DNA of 55,461 nucleotides, taken from an uncultured Bacteriovoracaceae bacterium. Lineage in GTDB: Bacteria > Bdellovibrionota > Bacteriovoracia > Bacteriovoracales > Bacteriovoracaceae. Shown in pieces: positions 16,441 to 48,936 of the stretch (positions are counted from its first letter, which is position 1; the number at the start of each line of letters is the position of its first letter). The stretch covers positions 1-55,461 of the forward strand of contig CATLOT010000025.1 of assembly GCA_950054155.1 (NCBI GenBank), written 5' to 3'. The position numbers and the translations under genes were made by a program. The notes beneath the pieces are model-generated. The model saw only the letters and a list, made by a program, of their open reading frames with translations. It searched no databases and was not told the DNA's origin.

Positions 16441-16685
16441 TCAACTGCCTCCCCGAAATCGTCTGCCATGACGTCTAAGAAATCTTCGCGAAACTTCAAA
16501 AGTCCGCTATCTTTTTCACCAATATTACCTGTTACCACTGCCATTTCTGGCTTCTTGCGCTCACCCTCGATAAGAAGCGACTCAAAGTCAATGCGCCCTG
16601 AAGCCTTATACTTAACCTTAGGTTTCTTCTCTTGTGCGCTGACACTCAAAGAGATAATCGCCAAAATAATCAAAAGCTTATTCAT
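16437..16685 (-). CDS. small periplasmic protein of the gliding cluster
   Basis: The 82-residue protein has a signal peptide (LLIILAIISLSVSA) and a short mature part with the motif IDFESLLIEGERKKPEMAVV, an acidic and amphipathic end, and no cysteine. Its position between the TPR protein (8-nt overlap) and the AgmX-like protein (ATGA overlap), with AAGGAG before the ATG, argues it is a real subunit. It could correspond to a small Glt protein such as GltF, but that is by position only. Confidence 0.6.
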   Translation of the reverse strand: MNKLLIILAIISLSVSAQEKKPKVKYKASGRIDFESLLIEGERKKPEMAVVTGNIGEKDSGLLKFREDFLDVMADDFGEAVE

Positions 16686-24289: not shown

Positions 24290-24410
24290 GAATTTTTTTC
24301 CGTTTTTTTCTTTTTTTTACCAGAGTAAAACACTCGGAATTATTAAGAAATCTTTACACCTTTCCTTAATATATCCCTTTAAATTTTACCTGTGATTTCC
24401 GATAAGATTG

Positions 24411-27224
24411 ATGAAGATGAGCCAAGCAACAAAGCCCCTTATATTTATTGAACCCCTTTCTGACACTCTCAAAAAACTAAAAGAGGTGGTGGAAGAAAAT
24501 GCTGAAAACGAGGGCATCGAGGTCTATGAAATCGATTCACTAGAGGAAGCGGCACAACTCCTCCCTACTATCGGTCAAAGCTTAACCCTCATGGCGAGCC
24601 CTAAGAAATGCGCCATGATGCTTCAATCCAATCGCAAGACGATCAAAAAGCTTCAATCAAAAACAATTTTACTCTCCCCTAAATCGATTCCAAGAAAAAC
24701 CCTTGATAAATTTATGAAAGTGGGGCTCACAGAATGTGTGGTGGAACCTGTTAATCCCAAAACACTTCTCTATAAAGTTCGCCTTCAGCTGCGCTCAATT
24801 GCGACTCGTAAAGATGAAGAAGAGGAGATGAATAATAAAATTGGTCAAGGAGACACAGAAGAACAAGTTGATACCAACTCAAAGATGCGCGCTGAAAAGG
24901 GAGTTATCCTTGATGAGGGAGACGATAACCCTACAAAAGAAAAGAAGAAGAACCAAGAAGAAAATGTTTTAGAGGATTATCACAAACCTAAGAAGAAGAC
25001 CTATAAAGAAGAAAATATTTCGGGGTTTTATAAGAATAAAACGAAGAAGCGAGAAGACTCTGAAGAAGAAGAATATGAAGAGGAACCCAAGAAAAAAGGC
25101 TATCAAGAAGAGGCCATAGACGGCCACTACAAAGGCAGTATCGAAAAGGCTCAAGAAGTTGAAGAAGAGGAAAAGGAAAAGAAGAAAGCGCCCTCCTTTG
25201 ACTTAGAAGATGATATTGATCAAATCAAAAAACAAATTAATGATGAAGTTGAAGATGAAGTTGCCAAGAAAGAAAAGAAGAAGCAACTTGAGTTTGCTGA
25301 AGAGACCCTTCAAAAAAAGAAGTCTTCCTCATTAGATGTAGAGGAAGATGGGCCTTCTTTAACCCAAGAAAAAGAAGGTGGGGAAGATCTTGGTGGTCAC
25401 TATAAAGGCGAAAGCACTAAAGGGCTTGATATCGAGGAAGAAGGTCCTGAGTTTCGAGAGCGCGCCGAACTAAGTTCGGAAGATTTAAAGGAAACAGAGG
25501 CCTCTAAGAAGCTTGATATAGTCGAAGACGATCCCGAAAAGGATCTGCTTGACGAAAGAGAGGATGAGGCCATCGATGGACATCTGCGTGGAAAAGCTCA
25601 AAAGCACCTCGACATTGAAGAAGATGAAACCGACTTTGTCGAAAAAGCTCCCGAAGCAGAAATTGAAAGACAAGAAGATGAGGTTTATAAACTCGATGTT
25701 GAAGAAGACCTTACCCCCTCACAAAAGAAGGCGAAGGAAGACGGCTACGATCCCAATGAGGAAGAGGATAAAAAACAAGATGCCAAGGCTGATGACATTG
25801 ATGGATACCTCCGCGGAGGGGCTGCTAAGAAGAATCTTGATATTGAGGAAGACGAAGACCTCTATCATGATGAAGCCCTCGCCCAATTAAAAGAGCGAAA
25901 GAAGAAAGAGCGCAACTCTCTTGACATTGAGGAAGATAGTGAAAAAGACCCTCTCCTTCAAGAAAAAATACTCGAAGAGGAATACAAGAGAGAAAAGACT
26001 GAAAAGCTTAGTGTCGTGGAGGACCACGACAGTGATCATCGCCAAGAAAAAGGCCTTCAAGAGGAAGAAGACGATTTTAAGAAAAAGAGTCAAAAACTTG
26101 ATATCGACGAAGATGGTTTCTCAAAAAGAGAGGGGGCCCAGGCAAAAGAGAAAGAAGAAGGCGGAAACAACCGCACTAATGCCCGTGCTGACCATATAAA
26201 GACTCATTACTCAAGTAAAGAAAGTATCCGTCATGATAATAATGATTGGGGAAATGGTTGGGATAAGAAGGGAAAAGCTCAAGATGACTTTCCTACTGAG
26301 AAGAATGAAGAAAAGGAACTCATTATTGAAAGTGAGGACCTAGGAGAGCAGACCATCGATTATGGGCAACTCAAGAAGGAGTTTGAAGGCATCACTATTG
26401 ATGGCATCCCTAACAAGAAGAAAAACTATGGTCTCTTTGATAATGTCGCCGAAATAAAGACCTATACCAAAACAGTACTCAATCCTGAGGGTCAACTTGA
26501 AGAGATGGCCTTTGAGGAAATTCAAAATGAAGTTGAGGAAGAGGAAAAAGAATTAGTTTTTGAGCCAGATTCAAAGGGTATGGAAATCGCTATCGAAGTG
26601 CTTGATTTTTATTTTGATGAAAAGGCAGATCCTGAGAAGCTCTGTGCGTTTATCTCCCAAAAAGTCAGCGAGAGGTTCTCAGGTGACACTATCTTTTACA
26701 CCAGTAAGAGAGGAGCGGAACTCACTTGTCTGTTCAATGGCTTTATTGAAAATAGCGCCGGAAAAGAGCCCGTAAGGCCATCAGCTGAGGAGCTAGAGAG
26801 TCTCTCAAGAGGTGAAAGAAAAGAGGTTGAAGATGATTTTAAAAAGGATCATCACGACTATGAAAAACAAAGAGATGCCTTTAGGAAATCATGGGAATTT
26901 GGCGCTTTTCGCCGCTTTGATCAGTGGAAGGAAATGAAAACTCCTCAGTGGCTAGATCACACCTTCCAAGCGAGTGAAAATGAATTTGTCTTTCCTTTTT
27001 ACGAAGGCGTGACTCTCTTAGGTCTCGCGGTATTTGTTCCTAAGGAGAGCTTTAACCCTGAAAAAGCCGAATCTCTTGAAGCTATTTTTGAAGCCGCGAG
27101 AGGCCTTTACCTCACTGAATACTATCACGAAGTTGGCTCCACTAAGCAAAGAGAAAAGACAGAGAAACCACCAGAGCAAAAGAAAGGTGGCTTCTTTAGT
27201 AAATTCTTTAAGAGGGGGGCGTAA
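24411..27224 (+). CDS. acidic repeat protein with degenerate receiver and GAF-like domains
   Basis: The first about 125 residues resemble a receiver fold (PLIFIEPLSDTL, then LTLMASPKKC, then VEPVNPKTLLYKVR) but lack the phosphoacceptor pocket. Residues about 135-630 are extremely acidic and lysine-rich, with about ten copies of an LDIEED-like motif and about five of a GHYKG/GYLRG-like motif, and are probably disordered. The last about 230 residues (from MEIAIEVLDFYFDE) resemble a GAF-type domain. The end is basic. The start is ATG 24411 or 24417, neither with a good ribosome site. It overlaps the next gene by one base (TAATG). Role unknown; a scaffold for signalling proteins is plausible. Confidence 0.6.
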   Translation: MKMSQATKPLIFIEPLSDTLKKLKEVVEENAENEGIEVYEIDSLEEAAQLLPTIGQSLTLMASPKKCAMMLQSNRKTIKKLQSKTILLSPKSIPRKTLDKFMKVGLTECVVEPVNPKTLLYKVRLQLRSIATRKDEEEEMNNKIGQGDTEEQVDTNSKMRAEKGVILDEGDDNPTKEKKKNQEENVLEDYHKPKKKTYKEENISGFYKNKTKKREDSEEEEYEEEPKKKGYQEEAIDGHYKGSIEKAQEVEEEEKEKKKAPSFDLEDDIDQIKKQINDEVEDEVAKKEKKKQLEFAEETLQKKKSSSLDVEEDGPSLTQEKEGGEDLGGHYKGESTKGLDIEEEGPEFRERAELSSEDLKETEASKKLDIVEDDPEKDLLDEREDEAIDGHLRGKAQKHLDIEEDETDFVEKAPEAEIERQEDEVYKLDVEEDLTPSQKKAKEDGYDPNEEEDKKQDAKADDIDGYLRGGAAKKNLDIEEDEDLYHDEALAQLKERKKKERNSLDIEEDSEKDPLLQEKILEEEYKREKTEKLSVVEDHDSDHRQEKGLQEEEDDFKKKSQKLDIDEDGFSKREGAQAKEKEEGGNNRTNARADHIKTHYSSKESIRHDNNDWGNGWDKKGKAQDDFPTEKNEEKELIIESEDLGEQTIDYGQLKKEFEGITIDGIPNKKKNYGLFDNVAEIKTYTKTVLNPEGQLEEMAFEEIQNEVEEEEKELVFEPDSKGMEIAIEVLDFYFDEKADPEKLCAFISQKVSERFSGDTIFYTSKRGAELTCLFNGFIENSAGKEPVRPSAEELESLSRGERKEVEDDFKKDHHDYEKQRDAFRKSWEFGAFRRFDQWKEMKTPQWLDHTFQASENEFVFPFYEGVTLLGLAVFVPKESFNPEKAESLEAIFEAARGLYLTEYYHEVGSTKQREKTEKPPEQKKGGFFSKFFKRGA

Positions 27225-36214: not shown

Positions 36215-39202
36215 ATGTCCGAAAATCAAAGACATAGAGACATTAAGGAGAATATGAGACCCATCATTTTTGAGCCCCATAAAAGGCCTACAATGACCTA
36301 CTCTTCCCGAGGAGGAGCAGAGGAATTGACGTTGACCCTGTATGAGGCAACGAGTGATGAGCTCATCTTTAAATCAAGCGATATGCCCTTCTTGCGAGGA
36401 CAAGTCCATTACAAGAACAAGAGCTATCAAGTGACCTTAAAAGATAGTCCTCATGAAGAGCGCCAAAGAGGTTTTTACACCTTTGAGCTTGAAGCGGGTC
36501 AAGAGCTCTATGTCACCCTTCTTAAAGAGCTTGATGCCGAAGAGCTCACCCGGTGGATTCTTGAAATTCCTCTCGATAAGAGCGAACAAGAAGAACCGCA
36601 ACACCACCACCTTGAAGAGCTGCCTCTTAAAAGAGGAGCGATAGCCCACACTCTAGAAGCTATCCTGGTGACCCTCTATCATAAGCCCTGGCTAAGTGCA
36701 CTTCTCCTTATACTTCTCTCGCTCTTTCCCGCCTATCAGTTAAAGAATATTAGTGTGGATCCAAGCCTCGATCGAGTGCTTGTTCAAGACAGCCCCTTGA
36801 TGAAGCAGTACAAGAAGTCTCTAGAACTTTTTGGTTCCGATAAGTCGGCCATTCTTTATTTTAAAGATAAAGACCTCTTTCAAAAAGAGAAGCTTGAAAA
36901 ACTGAGGGCATTCGCTTGGAAACTGCAAAAAGAAGATAAAATAGCGAGAGTGCGCAGTGTGTTCACTACCACCTTCATGCGCTATGAAAAAGAGGAGGAC
37001 ACTCTCTTTACGGAGCCTTTATTTCAAGACCTCGATATCTCTTCTGAGCTTTTAGCAAAGCGCCTTAAGCATGTCCAAAAGGACCCTAACCTTCATGGTC
37101 GCCTCATCGATGTGCCCCAAAAGACTCTGGTCTTTGTTCTCGAACTTAATCATCACAATAAGACGATGGTGCCTATCGCTGAGCTTCTCAATAGTGAGGT
37201 GAAAAAATTTAAAGAAGACTTCTCTGAAAGTTTTCAAACGGGAGAGCCCACCATTGAGCTCTTTCAAAAAGAAGAGATGGCCGAAAGCCCAAAGATCTTC
37301 ATGCCTCTCATCACTCTGGTTCTTCTTATCTGCTTTGTCTTCTTTCTTGGCAGCAGCTTTGCTTTTATCATCACTCTCCTCGCAACCCTTTTATCTACAG
37401 CCTGGGCCTTTGGTTGGATGACTTATATGAATATCCCCATCCAGATGATGGTTAACCTCGTTCCCGGAATTCTTCTTACCCTCAGTGCAACAGAAATAGT
37501 CCACATAGCGAGTAGCTTAAAAGTCGCAAAGGAGAATCACTTTAGTGATGTCGACTCCCTTCGCTACCTGGCCCGCGACATTGGAAAAGCCCTCTTTCTC
37601 ACTCTTTCCACAACTGCCCTTGGCTTTTTAAGTATCCGCTTCAGTGAAATTAAAATCTTACAAGAATTCTCAGTCGTCGCCTCTCTCGGGCTAATCTTTG
37701 CCTTTATTATCACCATTCTCTATATCCCCCTGCACTTGCGCCTCTTTCCCTATAAAAAGAAAAGCGGCTCCCAAGGCCACGCCCTCTTTAAAGGCTTTGA
37801 AAAGTACTTTATTCGCCTTACCTATCAATTTCTCTTTTCAAAGAAAGCTCTCTTACCTCTCCTTGCCTTCCTCATGCTTAACACCTACTTTGCCACGCAA
37901 GTCGAGGTTGATAATGACACCTTTCGCATGATTGCAAACCGTGCCCAAGTGAAGAAGAATCTCAATACATTTAAAGAGCGAATGGGGGGAATGAAGAGTA
38001 TTCACGCTGTCCTCTCCTTTAAAGACTCTACTGGTGAACAAGATCATAAGATGACAGACGCCAAAAACCTTAAGCACTTATGGAAACTTCACCAAGAGCT
38101 CGAAAAATATAAAGAAGTAAAACATATTGAAAGCTTTGCTGGGCTTATTGCGATCCTTAATCGAGAGATGCGTGAAGGAAAAGAAGAGTATTACAAAGTT
38201 CCTAATAGCCAAAATCTTATTTCTCAATACTTTATTATGCTGAGTAGAGATGATGTGGACCCTCTCCTAAGCGCTGACAAGTTAAAAACCAATATCAAAA
38301 TTTCTCACGATTTAAGCTCCTCTAAAAGAACCGAAGTCTTTATTAAGAAGCTTGAAAAGCATTTAGAACGGTTCACTAAAGACACCCCTTTTAAATTTCA
38401 CCTCACAAGTAGGAATATTTTAAATATCCATGCGGCCAACACCATCATTTCATCTCAAAGTGCCTCATTGATTACCATGGGCCTTGTTATTGTCGTTCTC
38501 ATCTCTCTTTTCTTTAAGAGCCTGCAAGCAGGTCTTTTAAGTCTCCTACCAAATCTCTTTCCCATCTTTGGACTCTTTGGGATTATGGGTCTTCTCAATA
38601 TTCCCCTTAATGTTGGAACGTGTGTTGTTGCTGCCATTACCATCGGTATTGCAGCAGATGATACCATTCACCTCTTCGCCCGCTATTTTCGCGACAAAGA
38701 GACAAGCCTTAATCCCCTCACCGCCTCACGCCTTACCATTGGGGATGAAGTTGTCCCGATTCTTACAACGAGCCTCTCCTTGGCCTTGTCTTTTAGCTTT
38801 TTTAGCTTTGCTCGCTTTATTCCCCTAATGCAATTTGGACTTCTAAGTGCCTACGTTTTGCTCTTAGCTGTGATAAGTGATCTCTATTTAGGTCCAGTTC
38901 TTCTAAGCCGCTATTTTCTTTTTAAAGAAGGGAACTCCAACTTCATAAAATGGATGTTAATTGACCAAAAGACCCTTAAAGAAGGTCAAGTATTTCATAA
39001 CCTATCAACTGCTGAAGTTGATACAATTTTGGCGCTTTCTCGCGTTACCTTTAAAAGAGAAAATTCACAGGGGCTCTTTATCCCACTAAAAAACTCAAGT
39101 GTGGATATCTATATTCACCTTCCAACTGATAAAGAAAGCCATCTTTCTCCTAGAACTTTTGAGAAAATTTGTCATAATTTAAAGACGTTAAATCTTTATT
39201 AA
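36215..39202 (+). CDS. RND/MMPL-superfamily exporter
   Basis: The 995-residue protein has the RND layout: a membrane helix at about 155-175, a periplasmic loop, five to six helices (about 360-520), another helix and loop (about 545-740), then five to six helices (about 745-905). MVNLVPGILLTLSATEIVHIASS and CVVAAITIGIAADDTIHLFARYFR are the paired helix motifs of this superfamily, with acidic residues likely to carry protons. An N-terminal soluble domain of about 140 residues and a C-terminal one of about 80 are extra. Substrate may be lipid or hydrophobic, as for MmpL-like exporters. It leads an apparent three-gene operon with a LolA-like and an outer-membrane protein. Confidence 0.85.
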   Translation: MSENQRHRDIKENMRPIIFEPHKRPTMTYSSRGGAEELTLTLYEATSDELIFKSSDMPFLRGQVHYKNKSYQVTLKDSPHEERQRGFYTFELEAGQELYVTLLKELDAEELTRWILEIPLDKSEQEEPQHHHLEELPLKRGAIAHTLEAILVTLYHKPWLSALLLILLSLFPAYQLKNISVDPSLDRVLVQDSPLMKQYKKSLELFGSDKSAILYFKDKDLFQKEKLEKLRAFAWKLQKEDKIARVRSVFTTTFMRYEKEEDTLFTEPLFQDLDISSELLAKRLKHVQKDPNLHGRLIDVPQKTLVFVLELNHHNKTMVPIAELLNSEVKKFKEDFSESFQTGEPTIELFQKEEMAESPKIFMPLITLVLLICFVFFLGSSFAFIITLLATLLSTAWAFGWMTYMNIPIQMMVNLVPGILLTLSATEIVHIASSLKVAKENHFSDVDSLRYLARDIGKALFLTLSTTALGFLSIRFSEIKILQEFSVVASLGLIFAFIITILYIPLHLRLFPYKKKSGSQGHALFKGFEKYFIRLTYQFLFSKKALLPLLAFLMLNTYFATQVEVDNDTFRMIANRAQVKKNLNTFKERMGGMKSIHAVLSFKDSTGEQDHKMTDAKNLKHLWKLHQELEKYKEVKHIESFAGLIAILNREMREGKEEYYKVPNSQNLISQYFIMLSRDDVDPLLSADKLKTNIKISHDLSSSKRTEVFIKKLEKHLERFTKDTPFKFHLTSRNILNIHAANTIISSQSASLITMGLVIVVLISLFFKSLQAGLLSLLPNLFPIFGLFGIMGLLNIPLNVGTCVVAAITIGIAADDTIHLFARYFRDKETSLNPLTASRLTIGDEVVPILTTSLSLALSFSFFSFARFIPLMQFGLLSAYVLLLAVISDLYLGPVLLSRYFLFKEGNSNFIKWMLIDQKTLKEGQVFHNLSTAEVDTILALSRVTFKRENSQGLFIPLKNSSVDIYIHLPTDKESHLSPRTFEKICHNLKTLNLY

Positions 39203-39216
39203 TTATGGAGTTTTTC

Positions 39217-40032
39217 ATGCCCTCACTATCAGCGAGCCTTATTCTCTCGTTCTGCCTCTCCTCTGGTTTCCTCTGTGCCCCTCTTCAAGCGGCGAAATGT
39301 GACAAAGAGGGAAATGCCATTATGAAAGAACAAGACAAGAGGCAATCGGCAAAGACCGAGGAAGAAAAACAAAAGATTGTCATTCAAGATGTAAAATCAA
39401 AGAAGAAAGAAGAGCGCGACCTTGTGCGCTTTGGAATAAAGCCAAAAGAAAATGATTCACGCTCTGTCCTCTACTTCAATTCACCGGCAACTATTAAGGG
39501 TGCAGGTCTTCTTAGTTGGAAAGAACAAGGTGAAGAAAACCAATGGCTCTATATCCCTGAAATAAAGAAACTTCAAAGAATCGCCAGCGGAAGTCGAAAA
39601 GAGTATTTTATGGGAACAGACTTCACTTACGCTGACCTCGAAGGTGAAAACCTTAAAAAGAATAATTACACCTGCCAAGGTGAAATGGCCTGTCCCAATA
39701 AGCAAGGCCAATGTTATATCATCGAAGCAAAACCCATTAACGAGAGTGAAAGCCGTAATATTGGCTATTCAAAGAGAATGCTCCTCGTGAATAAAGACAA
39801 GCTTATCACCCACAAGATCGTTTTCTTTGACCTTAAAGGCGCAAAACTAAAGACCGCAGAATATGTTCAGTGGGAACAAATAGGAAAACTCTGGCGGCCA
39901 AACCTCGCGATTATGGATCGCCATGGCGTCCAAAAAACATTCATCAAAGTTAATTCTCGAAAGCTCAATAAGCCTATTGATGACCTTGTCTTTGAAAAGA
40001 GGTTCCTAGAAAAAGAGATGCACATTAAGTAG
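39217..40032 (+). CDS. LolA-like outer-membrane lipoprotein-sorting family protein
   Basis: A signal peptide (LILSFCLSSGFLCAPLQAA) leads to a charged linker and then the domain often annotated as outer-membrane lipoprotein-sorting protein: WLYIPEIKKLQRIASGSRKEYFMGTDFTYADLEG, followed by cysteines in NYTCQGEMACPNKQGQC, and RMLLVNKDKLITHKIVFFD. Such proteins commonly accompany RND exporters and may carry hydrophobic cargo across the periplasm. I chose the ATG at 39217, which has GGAG 6 nt before it, over 39205. The stop overlaps the next GTG by one base (TAGTG). Confidence 0.78.
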   Translation: MPSLSASLILSFCLSSGFLCAPLQAAKCDKEGNAIMKEQDKRQSAKTEEEKQKIVIQDVKSKKKEERDLVRFGIKPKENDSRSVLYFNSPATIKGAGLLSWKEQGEENQWLYIPEIKKLQRIASGSRKEYFMGTDFTYADLEGENLKKNNYTCQGEMACPNKQGQCYIIEAKPINESESRNIGYSKRMLLVNKDKLITHKIVFFDLKGAKLKTAEYVQWEQIGKLWRPNLAIMDRHGVQKTFIKVNSRKLNKPIDDLVFEKRFLEKEMHIK

Positions 40033-42158
40033 TGGCCATAAAAGCAAGCCTCCTTCTTAGCCTCTTCATTCTCTCGTCCTCACTCATTGCACAGGACTTC
40101 ACCCGACGAGTCCCTCGAGTCCGCATAGGAAGCGTCAAAAAAGTAAGCGGCAGTCTCGTCGGCCTAGGTCGAAGTGACCGCAGCCTCACCTACCTTGGAA
40201 GAGGTGATCAGATTCTGGATAAGCAGACTCTAATCACACGGAGTTCAAGTCAGGCCATCATCAAGCTTGGGTATCAGAGTGAGGTCATCATTGGCGAAAA
40301 CTCAAAGCTCACAATCACTTTCATGCAAGGAAAGAACCGCTACCTTATTCGTCTGCTTCAAGGAGTTATCCGTGGCACTTATAATGGAGCTGGAAAACCA
40401 GAAGTCTACGTCACAGGAAATAGTCTCGATAAGAATTATGGCTCCTCTCAGTATGATGCTCTCTCTCGCTCGGGACGTTTTTATTTTAAACCCCGTAACA
40501 AAAGTCCAGTCTACAAGTTCTCCACTTCAAAAGAAGGGCGCTCTCAGTTAGAAATTAGCCGCGAGGAGATTGAGCTTCTCAGTCAAAGTGATCCCAATCA
40601 AAAGCCCGTATACTTCCTTAAAAAGACTAAGGCCAAAGTAAAGAAAAAAGAGGCTGCTCCCACCGTAGTCTCTTCTTCATCGGCAGTAAGTGAAGCCGCG
40701 GCCATCTTTGGTCTCTCAGAAACTGCGACGACCGCAGTTGAAGAGGCCTCCTCCATTTTCGGCTCAAGTGAAGCTAGTAACCGCGATGAAGCCGCGAATA
40801 TTTTTGGAGACGAAGTTCTCGAATCAAAAATCAAAGAGAAATTCAGTGATAACACAGGTGTGCTCCTTGAGAAAAAAGGACCTACCTTTAGAGAATTAGA
40901 AGTTGCCGCAAAGAAAAAGAAAGAAGCAAAGAATCCCCTTGATCTCTCCCTTTACCTAAAGTCCACACTTTACAGTTCTGCTCCTCGCGAAGATGTGGGT
41001 AATGTTGATCCTCAATCCTTCCATCAAGATGCCCGTCTGAACTTTGGCAATAAGTACTCCTTCAATGATGTGGAATCCCTGACCTTTAGTGCGTGGCTTG
41101 ATATCAGTAATCGAAAGGAAGTCTATAACGACATTGGGGAAACATTTGATCTCCAGTCAAGTAAGAGGAATTACCTCTACCTCAACGAACTCTACTACAC
41201 CTACACCACCCGCGATATGGATATCCAGTTTGGTAAGAAAATTCTTAAAACGGGTAAAGGGATCATCTACTCACCAAGTGATAGTTTTTCTCCCGCTGAC
41301 GGTACCGTTCCCACGGCCCCCCTCTTTCTTGGGAACTTCTTTATCAGCGCTGACTACTACCTTGGAGACTGGACCCTCACAGGCATTCTTCTGCCAACAG
41401 TTGTCCCCAATAAGAGCCCGACTCAAAATTCACGTTGGACCACTTTGTATTCGGACCTTGATTATCAACTCGAACAAGACCTTCCTAGTGGGTTTTCAAC
41501 AAGGGAAACGCAATTTCTCCTCAAGCTCGAGGGCACAAAATGGGGCACTGACTGGCTCTTCACTTTCTTTAATGGACCTAATACCAACCCTGTTATCAGA
41601 AACGACATTCAGGTCATTAATAACACCCCAACCTTTACCCTCATTCAAGAACATGTCCCTATAACCTATCTCAGTGCAGGCTTTTCAACGACCTTAAAAG
41701 GTTTTGAACTTCATGGTGAATTCCTCACACAAAATGCAGAGGATGGTCGTGATGACTCTTTCACAGCGATGATGATTGGCTTTCGCTATGTGATGGATAA
41801 CTGGCCTAAGAAACTAGGGTTAAATAATATCGACTTTGTCCTTGAGCATGGTAGAGAAACCCTAAGAAGCCCTCAATCCCAACCCTTCTATGCCCTGAGC
41901 TCTCTCAATGCCCGCTTCTATCAAAATAGCTGGGTAGGAACGATGATCTTTAACGTGAATGATAGCTTAAGCTTTAATTACGACTTTCATTTTGATCTCA
42001 AATATAATGGCAGCGCTCAAATTCTAGGAGCGAATTACAATAGTGGATCAAGTCAGTACAGGCTTAAAACAGAAGTCTTTAGTGGTGATGAGGAATCTAA
42101 CTTTGGAAAATGGGACCTCAATGACAATATTACTTTTGAATATGTCATAAACTATTAG
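40032..42158 (+). CDS. FecR-like domain fused to an outer-membrane beta-barrel
   Basis: A signal peptide (ASLLLSLFILSSSLIAQ) is followed by a FecR-like domain (about residues 35-130: GDQILDKQTLITRSSSQAIIKLG, then IRLLQGVIRGTY). A low-complexity Ala/Ser/Glu linker (about 195-300) contains three copies of an AxxIFG-like motif. From about 305 to the end there is a beta-barrel of many strands, ending FEYVINY. It is the third gene of the RND/LolA-like set, in the position taken by DUF1302-type barrels in similar clusters elsewhere. The GTG start overlaps the previous stop and has only a weak ribosome site, so translational coupling is likely. The fusion is unusual. Confidence 0.72.
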   Translation: MAIKASLLLSLFILSSSLIAQDFTRRVPRVRIGSVKKVSGSLVGLGRSDRSLTYLGRGDQILDKQTLITRSSSQAIIKLGYQSEVIIGENSKLTITFMQGKNRYLIRLLQGVIRGTYNGAGKPEVYVTGNSLDKNYGSSQYDALSRSGRFYFKPRNKSPVYKFSTSKEGRSQLEISREEIELLSQSDPNQKPVYFLKKTKAKVKKKEAAPTVVSSSSAVSEAAAIFGLSETATTAVEEASSIFGSSEASNRDEAANIFGDEVLESKIKEKFSDNTGVLLEKKGPTFRELEVAAKKKKEAKNPLDLSLYLKSTLYSSAPREDVGNVDPQSFHQDARLNFGNKYSFNDVESLTFSAWLDISNRKEVYNDIGETFDLQSSKRNYLYLNELYYTYTTRDMDIQFGKKILKTGKGIIYSPSDSFSPADGTVPTAPLFLGNFFISADYYLGDWTLTGILLPTVVPNKSPTQNSRWTTLYSDLDYQLEQDLPSGFSTRETQFLLKLEGTKWGTDWLFTFFNGPNTNPVIRNDIQVINNTPTFTLIQEHVPITYLSAGFSTTLKGFELHGEFLTQNAEDGRDDSFTAMMIGFRYVMDNWPKKLGLNNIDFVLEHGRETLRSPQSQPFYALSSLNARFYQNSWVGTMIFNVNDSLSFNYDFHFDLKYNGSAQILGANYNSGSSQYRLKTEVFSGDEESNFGKWDLNDNITFEYVINY

Positions 42159-42162
42159 CCGT

Positions 42163-42750
42163 TTATTTAGAGAGTTGCATGAAGTAGAGGCAGATAGGAA
42201 TAAAGTCTCCATCTGTACAACGCACACCATAGAAAAGAGAGCCCCTCGCAATGGAGTTTCCAAACTCTCCCACAAAGCCAGGTTCATCAACAATGAAAGC
42301 AAAATCTTGTAAGAGTCCCCTATTTCCCGTTGAGGTGTCCCCGGGTAAAGTCGGCGGAGTCGCCCCACAAATTTCAAGGTTCATTAAATCTTCAAGCTGA
42401 GTATCCGTTTCCTCAAATGGCCATCCCTCTTCAAGGCGAAACTTATTATTTGAAAAAACCTCTCCCCTTGCGACATGGTTGGTAACAACGCCTGGATGAT
42501 GTCCATAATTGGGGTAAGTATCATTAGTAGTCAAAACAACGCTCTTTCCAGAGACAACCAAGGTGGCACTCACTTCGGGACAAGTACGGTCTATAAAGTC
42601 AGGATCTGTTCCCGGGCCATCATAGACTTCCATAGAGCCCGTATAAGTACCATCATCACCGGAGGCATCATAATCATCAGGAGACAGCACACAACTGCTC
42701 AAAAGAACCAGCCCTAAATAAAAAGTGAAATAATTTCGTTTCAAATTCAA
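42163..42750 (-). CDS. lipoprotein of unknown function
   Basis: The signal ends in a lipobox, LSSC. The mature part is short, acidic and beta-rich with further cysteines (DRTCPEV, LEICGAT, VRCTDGDFIPIC) that may form disulfides. Ser/Thr and Asp are common (DDYDASGDDGTYTGS). I recognise no family. No ATG is available: the start is TTG at 42750 or 42744, and neither has a convincing Shine-Dalgarno. Its stop is 5 nt from the convergent beta-barrel gene. Confidence 0.55.
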   Translation of the reverse strand: MNLKRNYFTFYLGLVLLSSCVLSPDDYDASGDDGTYTGSMEVYDGPGTDPDFIDRTCPEVSATLVVSGKSVVLTTNDTYPNYGHHPGVVTNHVARGEVFSNNKFRLEEGWPFEETDTQLEDLMNLEICGATPPTLPGDTSTGNRGLLQDFAFIVDEPGFVGEFGNSIARGSLFYGVRCTDGDFIPICLYFMQLSK

Positions 42751-42957: not shown

Positions 42958-42960
42958 ATG
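42945..42960 (+). promoter_or_regulatory. -10-like hexamer abutting the giant gene start
   Basis: TAAAAT (42945-42950) is followed by 7 nt and the ATG at 42958, with no Shine-Dalgarno between. A leaderless start is possible. Confidence 0.3.
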
Positions 42961-45900
42961 AAGTTAACTGAGATCCTCTTCAAAATTGTCCTCCCCTTGA
43001 TGCTTTTGCTAAGCACGCCCGCCCATGCCAATAGTTGTGGCTACTCGGTCGACAATCCTCTCAATGCCGAGGCCTCAAGCTGTGCTTCAGCAGGCCATAA
43101 TTGGAATTGTAGCTATAACTTTTGTTTCACAGATAAAGAGCAGACATGGCTTCAAGGGGGATCGCTTGAATGTAATAAGAAAGTCAGTTTTTCAGAAAGG
43201 GAAAAGTGTAAAGAAGACCTCAATCAAAGTCTTTCAAGCTACACAAGCGAAGCTCGTGCCTGTAATGGAGATGCGCTTTGTTTGACCCGCCTTGATCAGT
43301 ATGTTGAAAAGTACATGGCCTGTACAACAAACTCATGTCGTGTTGAGCTTGAAAACCAGCGCGCTCTCTATTCTTCAGAACAAGCAAATTGCGAAAAGAA
43401 GAGCTCTCCTTTTAAAGAAGAGTGTTTGAATAATCTTGATACTTATGTCACACGATTTGAAAATTGTAATGGCGATAGTGTTTGTGAACAAAAGCTTGAT
43501 GAGCAGAGAATTGCTTATAAGAACGAGCAAACGCGCTGTGAAAACTACAGCAGTCCTCGCAACCAAGAATGCCTCAACAATCTAAAAAAATATGTTAGTG
43601 ATCTAGAGAAGTGTGAGGGAAATAAGACCTGTGAAAATAATCTAGAGGAGCGTCGTACCGCTTATCAACAAGAAGAAGCCAGCTGTATGGCCAAGAGTGA
43701 ACCACAGAAGTCACAGTGCCTAAGCCGTCTTACAGATTTCACTAATAAGTACAATTCCTGTTCAAATGATGCTTGTCGTGACCAGCTCATCGCTGATCAA
43801 GAACTCTATAGTAGCGAGAAAACAAAATGTGATGCCAAGACTGGAACAGAAAAAACAAGCTGTCACTCTCGCCTTGAGTCCTTTCTTGATAGCTACCTCG
43901 CGTGTGGAGAAGATCAGGCCTGTAAAGATCAGAAGATGGCCGAAAAAGATGACTATAATAATGAGCTCAATAAGTGTGAGGCCTTAGGCGGTGGTGAAAA
44001 GTCAGCATGCCTCAATCGCCTTAATGAATACACGGCCCAGTATGAGGCCTGTGGCAATAACCAGGCCTGTAAGAATAAACTTCAAGCTAATCGTGAAGAC
44101 TACAATCGCGAGTATAATGCCTGTATGGCCAAAGCCGATGCTTCCGCGCAAGCGAGTTGCCTCGGTCGCCTCGATGCTTTTACAGCAAAATATAAGGCCT
44201 GTAACGGAAATAGCACTTGTGAAAATGATCTTATCGCAAAGAAGAATGAGTACAATAGCGAAGCTGCTCGCTGCCAGGGCCTAGCAACAGCAAATGAAAG
44301 AACAACCTGTCAAAGTCAACTTGATCAATATCTCGCAAGCCTTGAGGCCTGTAACGGTAATAGCACTTGTGAGAGTAATCTTGAAAGTGATCGTCTAGCC
44401 TATCAAGCAGAGCATAGCCGCTGCCTTACTAAGACTGGATCGGATAAAACGGCATGTCTTGAAAATCTAGACTACTTCACCTCAAAGATGAATGAGTGTG
44501 GTAGCGATACTCAGTGTCGCGCGCAGCTTACGGCAGATAAAGATCTTATTCAAAATGAAGAGGCCCGTTGTAATTCTCTAACAGGAGAAAAGAAGACAAC
44601 ATGTCACGCGAATCTCTCTCAGTTTCTCACTTCATTTAAGGCCTGTAATGGCCAAACTCAATGTGAGAGCGACTTAAGAGACAGACAAGAAAGTTACACA
44701 GCAGAGAGAAGAAGCTGTGAAGCAAAGAGTACGAGTAGCGAGAGGAATGAGTGCCTCACTAGACTCGATCAATTTATGACAGACTACAACTCATGTAATG
44801 GCAATCAGAGCTGTATTGATCAGCTCATGGCCGATAAAGATGCCTATGAAGCGGAGAGAAGCCGCTGTCAAGCACTGACAGGCACTGAAAAGTCGATGTG
44901 CTTTGCCAATCTTGATACTTTTACAGCTGAGTATAAAGCCTGTGGAGAGGACCAAAGCTGTAAGGACGAGCTCAATAGACAAAGAGCAGAGTACCAAGCG
45001 GAAGCCGCAAAATGTGAGGCAAAACCAAGTGCACCAGAGAAAGAGCGCTGTCTAACAACTCTCAATGATTATGTGGCCCAAGTTACGGCCTGTGACAAAG
45101 ACAAAAGCTGTCTTGATCAGCTCTCAGAAAATAGGGCCCTATTTCAAGCTGAGAGTGCTCGCTGTGAAAAACTTCAAGGAAGTGAGAGAAGTCAGTGTTT
45201 TGCTAATCTAGATTCCTTTGTCGCTTCCTTTAATAGCTGTGGCAGTAATCAGGCCTGTAAAGATCAGCTCATGGCCGACAAAGAAGACTTTCAAGAACAA
45301 GAGGCCATTTGTCAGGCGAAACCCGCAAACGAAGCAGAGGCTTGTCTTTCACGCCTTAACAAATTTGTCACCTCTTATCAGGCCTGTGGCAACAACACGA
45401 CTTGTAAAAATAATCTCAAAAGAGATCGCGACGAATATTTAGCGGAAGAGGCCCGTTGTAGTGCCCTCTCCCCTCAAGCAGAAGTAAGTGCCTGCTTAGG
45501 CCGCCTCAACACCTATGTCACTCGCTATGAAGCGTGTGGAAATAACGAAACCTGTAAAGCAAATTTAAGACAAGATAGAGATGAGTACCTCGCTGAATTT
45601 AACCGCTGTGAATCTCTTAGCGCTAATGAGAAGCAAAAGTGTCATAGCAACTTAAGTGATTACATGGCTTCCTATGAAGCCTGTGGTACCAATACTCAGT
45701 GTATCGCCAAGCTCAGACAAGATAAGGCCGATTACGAGGCCCAAGTTGCTGCCTGTGAAGCAAAGACAGGGAGCGAGAAAACCCAGTGTTTTGCTGAGCT
45801 TGATGACTTCATGGCCAAGATGAAGGCCTGTGGAAGTGATGAACTCTGTAAGGAAAACTTAAGAAGAGAAAAAGAAGAATACCTCGCTGCCGTTGCAAAA

Positions 45901-48900
45901 TGTGACGAGAAACAAGGGGCACAAAAACAAAATTGCCTCGATCAGCTTGCTGCCTTCATGAAAAAGTATGAAGCCTGTGGTAGTGATGAAGCTTGTAAAG
46001 AGCGCCTTCTCACTCAAAAGAGTGATTACGAAGAAGAGCTGGCCCGCTGTGAGGCCCTCCCCTCCGATGAGCAAGGAAAGTGTATTGAAGATTTAAATAA
46101 CTTTGTTGCAAGCCTTGAGGCCTGCCAGGGTAATAAGAGTTGCGAAGAACAACTCATGGCCGACAAAGATCTCTATCAAACTGAGCTTAATCGCTGTCAT
46201 GCCATGAGTGGAAGTGAGCGCGACACGTGTTTATCAAATCTTGATAAGTTTATGGAGCGCTACAACGCCTGCGGGACGAATGCGAGCTGTAAGAGTGAGC
46301 TCCTTGCTCAGAAAGATGAGTATAAGAGTGAGGAAAATCGCTGCCTCGCCCTCTCTGCAAGTGAAAAGGAATCATGCCTCTCGCGCCTCAATGAATATAT
46401 GGCCGCCTATGAGGCCTGTGGAACAGATGCCGCCTGTATCGATGAGCTTGAATCCAATCGAAATCAATATATGGCAGAATATAATCGCTGTCAGACCTTT
46501 ATGGGTCCCCAAAAATCTCAGTGTCTAGAGCAACTCGACTCCTTTACAGAGAAGTTTAAGGCCTGTGGCAATGACCAGGCCTGCAAGGACAAACTTATTG
46601 CTGACAAAGATGCCTATCAGGCAGAGAAGGAGCGTTGTCAAAACCTTCCTCCAGCAGAACAGACCCAATGCTTAAGCAACCTGGACCAGTACCTGAGCAC
46701 CTATGAAAGCTGTGGCGATGATCAGGCCTGTAAAGACCAGCTTGAAGAGGACCGCACCGCCTATCAAGCAGAGCTTAATAAGTGTCGCGCAGAAGAAGAC
46801 CCTACCCTCGCTGCTAACTGCGAATCTAATCTTCAAGCTTTTCTCAGTGAATATCAAAAATGTGGTGGTGACCAGGCCTGTAAAGATCAACTTGAAGCGG
46901 ATAAGAATCAATTTCAAGCGGCTCTTGATAAATGTGAGTCTGAATCAAGCCCAGAGGCAATCTCTAGTTGTAAGAGCAATGCCTATGACTTTGTTAATAA
47001 GTACACAAGTTGCTCGAATCAAGCTTGTAAAGATGATCTCAGAAAAGATTATGAACGCTATGAATCTGCAATGGCCGACTGTGAGGCCAAAAACACTCTT
47101 GGAGAAAAGCAAGCTTGTCGTGATCAAGTAAACGCCTATGTCGCCGAAGTCCAAAAGTGTGAAGGCAAAAGTGGAGACGCCAAGAAACAGTGTATCGGTG
47201 AGGCTGAATACAGAATTGGAACAACAATTTGTGCCGAGAAACTTGAATGCCCAAGTGGTCAAACATTCAACTGCCAGACAAAGAGCTGTATGAGTCCTGA
47301 GGCCGAAGCCGACATGGCCCGCATCTTTATGGAATGTCATATGCAACCAAGCGAAAGTGAAAAAGACGCTTGTATGGCCAATTTGCAAGAGATTGCAGAG
47401 ACGGGAGCAACCCTTGAGAAAGATCTTGAAAATAGTGCGAATCAAATGGCTTCCGACTTTAAAAAGGGTGCGATGGTAGCCGGTATCGGTGGAGCAGCCG
47501 GAATCATTACTACTCTCCTCTCTATTCAAGGTGGCGGTGTTTGTGCTTCAGGTGGCCTTCTTGCTCTTGGGAGTGCTTATGCTCTCTTCAATGAAGTCGA
47601 TCACTCAAAGCAAGTTAAGCAGAGAATGGAAACCCTTCAATCTCAATACCAATCAAAAGTTGCGCAAATGGACCGTAACTCCTATGAGTATCAGCGCTTA
47701 TCTTTTGAATACGCTATTCTCGGTCACGAGGAAATTGCACGCGCCTATGATGAGAAAGGAAGAAATTATAAAATTATCATGGGTGTAGGCGGAGCTGCCG
47801 CAGCTGTTGGCGGTGTTGAATTGGCCATCGCGATGCAAATGCAATCTCTTGGTCTTCCTCCCCCTCCTTGTAATCAAAAACTCGCAGGCGCAAATATCGC
47901 AGCCGGTGCCCTCATGCTAGGCTCAGCCGCAAGCCTCAATGGTACAGCAAGTAGTGCTGCCAGTAAGCACCGCTCAGATGCAGGAGAACTTAAAGAACTC
48001 TTAGCTGAGTATGATAAATTTCATGAGGCAGGTGGTGTTGATGCCAATGCCAAAACTCTGGCACCAAGCTTAGCTGGTGTTGTTGAGCAGATCAGTGTTG
48101 ATCCCCTTATGAATGGCAACACGGTTAACACTATCAATCCAGATGCTGCTGCTGGCAGTGTCGAGGCGACAGAGAGTATTTCTGCTAATCCCGACACTCG
48201 TGCCTGTATTTCAAGTAATGGTCGCCCCGATGTAAGCTGTGGCTGTTCAGCAAAGAATAGCTGCTTGCAGACATCTCTCGACTTTAATGTCTCTGGAACG
48301 AAGAATACAATCGCAGCTCAGAAAGCTCAGATTAGCGGTATTAACTCAAAAACAGGAGCAGCTAGTCTTGTGACGGGCTTTAACCAATTTGCTGTTGGTA
48401 AGAAGACACTCTCTGAGTTTAAAAAGGAAGCTCTCGACTTAAGTGAGTCTCAAATTAAAGCAGGCCTTGCGGCGATCAATGATTTTAATGCCAATGCCAA
48501 TGACCTAGAAAAAATTGATATCTCTAAAGGTGGACTCAAAATACTCGCCACTCAATTTGGAACAACGCCAGCGGCCAGTACCGCTTCAAGATCACTTGCA
48601 AGCACTTCTGAGGAAGAAGACTCTCAGAAAGCAAAAGAGTCTCCCTCTGATGCCCCTGCCTTTAAATCAACACTCGCTTTTAAGAAAGACAAGATCCTAG
48701 GAAAGCTTGATTTTCTCTTTGAGGATGATGGTAGTGATGGGGATAGAGGTCTTGCCTCTCTTACTGCTGAAGACGAGCCTACTCTAGTTTCTGAGAACCT
48801 AATCGAAGAAGAGAATAAGAGTCGTAAAAACCGTTCAGGATATTCTAAAGAAGGCATCATTCAAAATCGTAATTTCGACCTCTTTAAGGCTATTTCCATG

Positions 48901-48936
48901 CGCTATCGTCGAAAATTCTTTGTCAAAAAGCAGTAA
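42958..48936 (+). CDS. giant secreted protein with about 27 four-cysteine helical repeats
   Basis: The 1992-residue protein has a signal peptide (VLPLMLLLSTPAHA) and a short cysteine-rich head. From about residue 100 to 1410 there are about 27 tandem units of about 49 residues with the cysteine pattern C-x5-C-x17-C-x10-C-x13. Between cysteines lie two charged helices, such as CKDQLMADKEDFQEQEAIC and CLSRLNKFVTSYQAC. A further cysteine-rich segment follows, then two glycine/alanine-rich hydrophobic hairpins (about 1500-1540 and 1600-1665) that may enter a membrane, a Ser/Ala-rich region, and a basic end (AISMRYRRKFFVKKQ). I know of no described family. A disulfide-stapled rod or fibre outside the cell is inferred. 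Confidence 0.8.
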   Translation: MKLTEILFKIVLPLMLLLSTPAHANSCGYSVDNPLNAEASSCASAGHNWNCSYNFCFTDKEQTWLQGGSLECNKKVSFSEREKCKEDLNQSLSSYTSEARACNGDALCLTRLDQYVEKYMACTTNSCRVELENQRALYSSEQANCEKKSSPFKEECLNNLDTYVTRFENCNGDSVCEQKLDEQRIAYKNEQTRCENYSSPRNQECLNNLKKYVSDLEKCEGNKTCENNLEERRTAYQQEEASCMAKSEPQKSQCLSRLTDFTNKYNSCSNDACRDQLIADQELYSSEKTKCDAKTGTEKTSCHSRLESFLDSYLACGEDQACKDQKMAEKDDYNNELNKCEALGGGEKSACLNRLNEYTAQYEACGNNQACKNKLQANREDYNREYNACMAKADASAQASCLGRLDAFTAKYKACNGNSTCENDLIAKKNEYNSEAARCQGLATANERTTCQSQLDQYLASLEACNGNSTCESNLESDRLAYQAEHSRCLTKTGSDKTACLENLDYFTSKMNECGSDTQCRAQLTADKDLIQNEEARCNSLTGEKKTTCHANLSQFLTSFKACNGQTQCESDLRDRQESYTAERRSCEAKSTSSERNECLTRLDQFMTDYNSCNGNQSCIDQLMADKDAYEAERSRCQALTGTEKSMCFANLDTFTAEYKACGEDQSCKDELNRQRAEYQAEAAKCEAKPSAPEKERCLTTLNDYVAQVTACDKDKSCLDQLSENRALFQAESARCEKLQGSERSQCFANLDSFVASFNSCGSNQACKDQLMADKEDFQEQEAICQAKPANEAEACLSRLNKFVTSYQACGNNTTCKNNLKRDRDEYLAEEARCSALSPQAEVSACLGRLNTYVTRYEACGNNETCKANLRQDRDEYLAEFNRCESLSANEKQKCHSNLSDYMASYEACGTNTQCIAKLRQDKADYEAQVAACEAKTGSEKTQCFAELDDFMAKMKACGSDELCKENLRREKEEYLAAVAKCDEKQGAQKQNCLDQLAAFMKKYEACGSDEACKERLLTQKSDYEEELARCEALPSDEQGKCIEDLNNFVASLEACQGNKSCEEQLMADKDLYQTELNRCHAMSGSERDTCLSNLDKFMERYNACGTNASCKSELLAQKDEYKSEENRCLALSASEKESCLSRLNEYMAAYEACGTDAACIDELESNRNQYMAEYNRCQTFMGPQKSQCLEQLDSFTEKFKACGNDQACKDKLIADKDAYQAEKERCQNLPPAEQTQCLSNLDQYLSTYESCGDDQACKDQLEEDRTAYQAELNKCRAEEDPTLAANCESNLQAFLSEYQKCGGDQACKDQLEADKNQFQAALDKCESESSPEAISSCKSNAYDFVNKYTSCSNQACKDDLRKDYERYESAMADCEAKNTLGEKQACRDQVNAYVAEVQKCEGKSGDAKKQCIGEAEYRIGTTICAEKLECPSGQTFNCQTKSCMSPEAEADMARIFMECHMQPSESEKDACMANLQEIAETGATLEKDLENSANQMASDFKKGAMVAGIGGAAGIITTLLSIQGGGVCASGGLLALGSAYALFNEVDHSKQVKQRMETLQSQYQSKVAQMDRNSYEYQRLSFEYAILGHEEIARAYDEKGRNYKIIMGVGGAAAAVGGVELAIAMQMQSLGLPPPPCNQKLAGANIAAGALMLGSAASLNGTASSAASKHRSDAGELKELLAEYDKFHEAGGVDANAKTLAPSLAGVVEQISVDPLMNGNTVNTINPDAAAGSVEATESISANPDTRACISSNGRPDVSCGCSAKNSCLQTSLDFNVSGTKNTIAAQKAQISGINSKTGAASLVTGFNQFAVGKKTLSEFKKEALDLSESQIKAGLAAINDFNANANDLEKIDISKGGLKILATQFGTTPAASTASRSLASTSEEEDSQKAKESPSDAPAFKSTLAFKKDKILGKLDFLFEDDGSDGDRGLASLTAEDEPTLVSENLIEEENKSRKNRSGYSKEGIIQNRNFDLFKAISMRYRRKFFVKKQ
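43257..47180 (+). repeat. tandem coding repeats of about 147 bp
   Basis: About 27 units, each encoding about 49 residues, run head to tail inside the giant gene. At DNA level most have diverged, but some neighbours stay close: GCCTGTAACGG followed by AATAGCACTTGTGA occurs near 44200 and again near 44350. A motif like CTCATGGCCGA followed by AAAGA recurs near 44823, 45267 and 46154. This suggests growth by duplication, some of it recent. Confidence 0.85.

Follow-up and report, generated by a model that had tools for sequence, protein, structure and literature searches.

A giant cysteine-rich helical repeat protein of Bacteriovoracales, a possible disulfide-locked rod of the cell envelope

The window analyzed here, a stretch of 55,461 nucleotides that constitutes contig C25 of the 3.5 Mb genome of an uncultured Bacteriovoracaceae bacterium, encodes a giant protein of 1992 amino acids and 126 cysteines (6.3% of its residues) in a single reading frame on the forward strand (42958-48936, ATG start). 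The reading toward which we lean is that this protein is an exported, disulfide-locked structural rod of nearly fixed length, fastened in the envelope through its C-terminal domain and a lipoprotein. Its rod character is well supported; its role and, as reasonable extensions of the data, its location in the envelope and its partnership with an outer-membrane lipoprotein are what we infer.

A tandem array of four-cysteine units

From the N to the C terminus, the giant comprises a signal peptide, a small cysteine module, a variant first unit, 26 strict units, a second cysteine module, two hydrophobic hairpins, a C-x10-C-x-C-x5-C motif, and a basic tail. The features, with the evidence for each, are as follows.

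42958..48936, forward strand: giant exported repeat protein (open reading frame, translation, and orthologues)
42958..43029, forward strand: Sec-type signal peptide, residues 1-24 (...PAHA/NSC; hydrophobic windows at residues 1-6, judged by eye)
43030..43320, forward strand: N-terminal cysteine module (C-x14-C-x8-C-x4-C) and variant first hairpin, residues 25-121 (cysteine spacing; complete orthologues are similarly laid out)
43321..47157, forward strand: array of 26 strict four-cysteine helical units, residues 122-1400 (cysteine spacing; AlphaFold2 model of six units)
47158..47397, forward strand: C-terminal cysteine module with C-x7-C-x4-C-x15-C-x11-C, residues 1401-1480 (cysteine spacing, family alignment)
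47455..47601, forward strand: hydrophobic hairpin 1, about residues 1500-1548, with conserved Cys1529 at the turn (hydropathy; cysteine nearly invariant in the family)
47602..47757, forward strand: charged helical connector between the hairpins (long helices in a second AlphaFold2 model; predicted local distance difference test score, pLDDT, of about 64-85 for the block)
47761..47943, forward strand: hydrophobic hairpin 2, about residues 1602-1662, with conserved Cys1638 at the turn (hydropathy, family alignment)
48205..48264, forward strand: conserved motif C-x10-C-x-C-x5-C, residues 1750-1769 (cysteine columns invariant in alignments A1 and A3)
48871..48933, forward strand: C-terminal tail NFDLFKAISMRYRRKFFVKKQ, the FxxISxRY tag (tail motif analysis)

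The strict units conform to C-x(4,5)-C-x17-C-x(10,11)-C-x13, are 48-50 residues long, and follow one another without interruption; together with the variant first hairpin (x17, x5, x13; residues 84-121) they bring the total to 27. Shuffling the protein 2000 times gave a mean of 0.0115 strict units and a maximum of 1, versus 26 in the real sequence. An earlier, sequence-only reading of the window had described about 27 head-to-tail units of about 49 residues, with cysteines spaced x5, x17, x10, x13, that end in hydrophobic hairpins and a basic tail. The unit count stands, the spacings are borne out as x4/5, x17, x10/11, x13, and both hairpins and the basic end are found by hydropathy and in the sequence.

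Complete orthologues (n = 8) from four Bacteriovoracales genera all contain 27 or 28 units: the three from the window's genus (g1) have 27, in arrays of 1279-1284 residues, and the five from the other three genera have 28, in arrays of 1327-1332 residues. Over the 213 units of these proteins, 852 of 852 array cysteines are kept and none is added, the x17 and x13 spacings are constant in every unit, and insertions and deletions are confined to the turns (x4/5/8 and x10/11). The cysteine count of the mature protein is even in all eight (126 or 130). Besides the cysteines, the only strongly conserved positions of the unit are L11, Y18, L40, F/Y43, and a mostly aromatic position 47. Outside the conserved cysteines, identity falls to about 35% across the four genera, the unit number staying at 27 or 28; this near constancy of copy number despite sequence drift is expected if length matters, and it makes the proposition that length is function directly testable. 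Within the window's genus, the identity of non-cysteine positions between units in register is 0.56 (G003) and 0.43 (G006) versus 0.29 off register, and between genera the register is nearly lost. In the closest pair of loci (L087 and L090), the proportion of nonsynonymous differences (pN) in the array is 0.065 versus a saturated synonymous proportion (pS) of 0.77; judged from these values, the array is under purifying selection.

Six interior units were modeled with AlphaFold2 from an 86-row alignment composed solely of the window protein and its relatives. This structure prediction, which the sequence-only reading had proposed as a check, returned a confident, ordered, all-helical repeat with a mean pLDDT of 92.7, a predicted template modeling score of 0.76, and no residue below a pLDDT of 70. 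Each modeled unit is an antiparallel pair of helices, about 22 and 20 residues long (helix A, 5-27; helix B, 30-49), and the units form a regular stack. The cysteines had been placed at the ends of the helices; in the model, the helices overrun them, such that cysteines are found up to about two helical turns inside the helix ends; similarly, the x10 segment, formerly taken for a loop, is mostly helix around a turn of two to three residues. A Foldseek search of the repeat model against the PDB and viral models gave no match at E <= 0.001. The top VIA structural matches are mostly designed helical repeats, with Z scores of up to 8.7, values that are common for repeats.

The invariance and even number of the cysteines are as expected if all are paired. 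Pairs that flank each turn (C-x5-C and C-x10-C) would leave four cysteines on the N-terminal side of the array and 12 on the C-terminal side, both even numbers, whereas self-closing of each hairpin would leave an odd number at both ends. Because the remainder is even at both ends only with turn-flanking pairs, stapling of the loops, with one pair across each turn, is favored by this count, not proven.

Searches of the giant against Pfam, NCBIfam, and PHROGs gave nothing credible, matches at E of about 0.05-0.1 being disregarded, and PDB sequences, searched with profiles from the repeat alignment and from an alignment of the C-terminal domain, returned chance matches only. The earlier statement that no described family has this pattern thus agrees with the scans, and a literature search found no paper on the family.

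The C-terminal domain, its tail, and the neighboring genes

The giant carries all of the marks of a C-terminal domain family (alignment A1): the cysteine module, two cysteine-bearing hydrophobic hairpins, a CxC motif, and the FxxISxRY tail. Family members have the same C-terminal layout as the giant, but most are proteins of about 600-800 residues that lack the 49-residue array, and they occur in 124 of the 129 genomes of the order, usually in several copies per genome. The family profile matched 75 of 242 sampled genomes of the phylum, all of one taxonomic family. By these profile searches, the family is undescribed, is carried by nearly all genomes of the order, and is absent from the other genomes sampled in the phylum. 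The giant is part of the A1 seed; the profile matches in other genomes and the tail control given below are independent of the seed. Modules resembling the C-terminal cysteine module of the giant are also found in short paralogues and inside a different repeat: two further giants, in G110 (L057) and G111 (L058), have a tandem six-cysteine unit (x8, x4, x15, x11, x17, x9; about 20 units in G111) on the C-terminal domain. Since a different unit has been expanded on this domain, tandem growth of cysteine hairpins seems to have occurred more than once, and the six-cysteine expansion is, from its sequence, apparently independent of the 49-residue array.

A Foldseek search of the C-terminal AlphaFold2 model against the PDB gave no match at E <= 0.001, and its matches to alpha pore-forming proteins (E of about 1 or worse) were not used. 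Ordinary insertion of the hairpins into the inner membrane seems unlikely, as it would put the charged flanks outside and the conserved turn cysteines in the cytoplasm.

The motif FxxISxRY falls within the last 20-45 residues of 40 of the 341 unique open reading frames in the DNA that was fetched, a proportion that is not a genome-wide rate, as the fetched loci were largely picked for the C-terminal family. As controls, none of 1227 random internal segments and one of an equal number of shuffled tails matched. In the window's genome, a tail profile found eight proteins (window 48871-48933; L062 2888-4981, reverse strand; L126 2123-4489, forward strand; L107-L109, L111, and L112). Seven of them belong to the seed; the one outside it, an 815-codon frame, contains a YkuD-type L,D-transpeptidase domain (E = 1.1e-39). 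The carriers also include a glycine-rich protein, encoded by a 713-codon frame (697 residues from the start codon), in which neither a Pfam family nor the C-terminal domain family was detected. Because the tail, about the last 25 residues of the giant, is common to otherwise unrelated exported proteins, the best reading is that it serves in sorting or anchoring, and the sequences suggest FxxISxRY as a candidate C-terminal tag of Bacteriovoracales. If it is a true sorting signal, it would indicate an export or anchoring route, so far unknown, in this order, which includes predatory bacteria.

The 49-residue repeat itself is confined, among 369 genomes of the phylum, to 12 of the 129 that belong to the order. 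The giant's lone sequence gave no contig matches as a query; the alignment, used as a query, recovered the orthologous loci, and loci L081-L090 are on the contigs that the genome search matched, not from further species. Those carriers that have names are Bacteriovoracales bins from metagenomes, and several bear the label Halobacteriovorax, Halobacteriovoraceae, or Bacteriovoracaceae. The gene next to the giant and the three that precede it are as follows.

42163..42750, reverse strand: divergent partner gene for a 195-residue lipoprotein with lipobox LLSSC, V at +2, and four further invariant cysteines (co-occurrence, adjacency)
36215..39202, forward strand: MMPL/RND-type transporter (Pfam PF03176)
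39205..40032, forward strand: LolA-like protein, PF17131 (Pfam match, synteny)
40032..42158, forward strand: protein with a FecR-like N terminus and a probable outer-membrane barrel (weak FecR match; barrel judged by eye; synteny)

Among 124 genomes searched, the lipoprotein is present in exactly the 12 that have the array, and in all eight complete loci its gene adjoins that of the giant divergently, about 200 bp away. Cys20 and Val21, the +2 residue, are invariant in eight sequences; with no Asp at +2, the lipobox is of the outer-membrane type. The +2 sorting rule for lipoproteins comes from E. coli. From these residues, we infer that the partner is an outer-membrane lipoprotein, and its co-occurrence gives a handle on the location of the giant. 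A hydrophobic N-terminal stretch is seen in all orthologues of the giant, and the earlier placement of the protein in the envelope or outside the cell agrees with its signal peptide and with its lipoprotein partner.

At least part of the MMPL/LolA-like/FecR-barrel triad, possibly a trans-envelope lipid export system, is linked to the giant in six of seven orthologous loci. In g8 genomes, the genes for the giant and the lipoprotein have been inverted together, as a unit, with respect to the triad, which they still adjoin. The triad is absent from the examined flanks of L089 (G106), where the pair is present. Elsewhere in the window, two long frames (16678-19575, reverse strand, 965 residues; 24408-27224, forward strand, 938 residues) have no Pfam match.

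A proposed rod in the envelope and its alternatives

After export by the Sec route, the C-terminal domain, with its cysteine module, two hairpins, and FxxISxRY tail, would anchor the giant in the envelope, and the partner lipoprotein would sit at the outer membrane. All of the cysteines would pair, most simply in one disulfide across each turn, making the helical stack a stiff rod. Such a rod could serve, within the envelope or on it, as a stiff spacer or strut whose length the unit number determines. At a guessed rise of about 1-2 nm per unit, 27 units would measure 27-54 nm. The MMPL, LolA-like, and barrel neighbors make it possible that the giant works alongside a route that exports lipids or lipoproteins across the envelope.

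Several points weigh against this account. All evidence on the giant is computational, and the disulfide pairing is putative; pairing of C7 with C50 within one hairpin would also be allowed by helix-face geometry. DsbB (PF02600) was not found in the genome, VKOR not having been searched for. The C-terminal AlphaFold2 model is weak (mean pLDDT of 64) and shows long helices, hydrophobic at their ends, and disorder ahead of the tail; membrane insertion of the hairpins is read from hydropathy. The fixed unit number could instead reflect diverged repeats that are unable to recombine, not selection for length. In addition, the independent genomes with an array number about 11, given that the repeat locus of G148 (L060, on G148:C140) is probably a contaminant copy of the G083 contig: its repeat scores are identical to those of G083, and G148 belongs to another genus and has 5% contamination.

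The alternatives are taken here in falling order of probability. A protein ruler, in which selection holds the unit number at 27 or 28 since length sets an envelope distance, and which would have a dedicated lipoprotein and be sorted by the FxxISxRY tag, is a tentative proposal that we judge rather unlikely. Also unlikely is a surface adhesin or fiber, in which the rod would reach out from the cell and touch a surface or prey. Anchoring at the surface could be provided by the hydrophobic hairpins and C-terminal tail, together with the signal peptide, and surface exposure has been reported for CagY, a comparable protein with cysteine-rich helical repeats (PMC2581425). However, the giant has neither an RGD sequence nor a recognizable binding domain, and the array is lacking in most genomes of the order, including G008, probably that of the cultured predator Halobacteriovorax marinus SJ. 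Moreover, no recognized secretion machinery lies near the giant in the orthologous loci, in which not all genes were profiled, and the neighborhood shows nothing adhesion-like. The sequence-only reading is upheld in its ordered helical repeat and its lack of a known family, and the invariant and even cysteines agree with its disulfides; the attachment or prey contact that it also suggested finds no support.

Doubtful as well is a periplasmic scaffold for the adjacent MMPL/LolA-like/barrel system, bridging its inner- and outer-membrane parts. The PF03176 and PF17131 matches, the lipobox of the partner, and a linkage that survives inversion of the pair speak for such a scaffold; L089, with the pair and no triad in its examined flanks, speaks against it. 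It is highly improbable that the giant, instead of being a disulfide rod, uses its many thiols to bind metal or to buffer redox state: its cysteine content and the undetected DsbB would suit such a protein, but the strictly constant x17 and x13 spacings suit a structural role, the protein has a signal peptide, and DSBA-family matches above cut-off occur at four places in the genome. Binding of metal or heme was rejected because CxxC and CxxCH are absent from every orthologue. Equally little credence is given to a CagY-like secretion-channel subunit, with repeats in the periplasm or outside and hydrophobic helices crossing the outer membrane: the size of about 2000 residues and the long cysteine-bearing helical repeat region followed by hydrophobic helices are in its favor, but the giant has no PF07337 (CagY_M) match at cut-off (the best in the genome, 12.4 bits versus a cut-off of 21, lies elsewhere) and no VirB10 family match at E <= 1, and no type IV secretion gene was recognized among the profiled genes of the orthologous loci, not all of which were profiled.

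Comparison with known cysteine-rich repeat proteins

To our knowledge, large bacterial proteins with so many regularly placed cysteines are rare. The authors who modeled CagY were unaware of any other large protein having so many cysteines concentrated in one region (58; PMC10706595), versus 126-130 in the giant and its orthologues. The middle repeat region of CagY, a protein of Helicobacter pylori, is a helical tandem array of 31-39-residue modules, each with two conserved cysteines that are modeled as one disulfide between consecutive helices (PMC2581425, PMC10706595). Similar to CagY, the protein described here is a giant, with a probable place in the envelope, and has long cysteine-bearing α-helical tandem repeats. 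The two differ in that the unit number of CagY varies by deletion and duplication and its C terminus is of the VirB10 type, whereas the giant has 49-residue, four-cysteine units in near-fixed number and an unrelated C-terminal domain. The variation in CagY is between close strains, and the constancy at 27 or 28 units here is a comparison across species.

HcpB and HcpC, cysteine-rich proteins of Helicobacter with Sel1-like repeats, are smaller, and their repeats are 36 residues long. In the part of PMC2581425 that treats them, these Hcp proteins are built of α/α hairpin repeats with one disulfide each, whereas two would be expected per unit of the giant. Sel1 and TPR profiles gave no match in the giant at E <= 1. 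The designed repeats DHR76, DHR79, and RPB_PLP1, which are among the best structural matches (Z of 7.2-8.7), are artificial and have Foldseek E values above 0.3, and their likeness is one of shape, not kinship. CagY and the Hcp proteins are the closest analogues in the literature searched, and by profile tests neither is a relative; what is new in the present system is the co-occurring lipoprotein, the order-wide C-terminal family, and the FxxISxRY tail on unrelated exported proteins.

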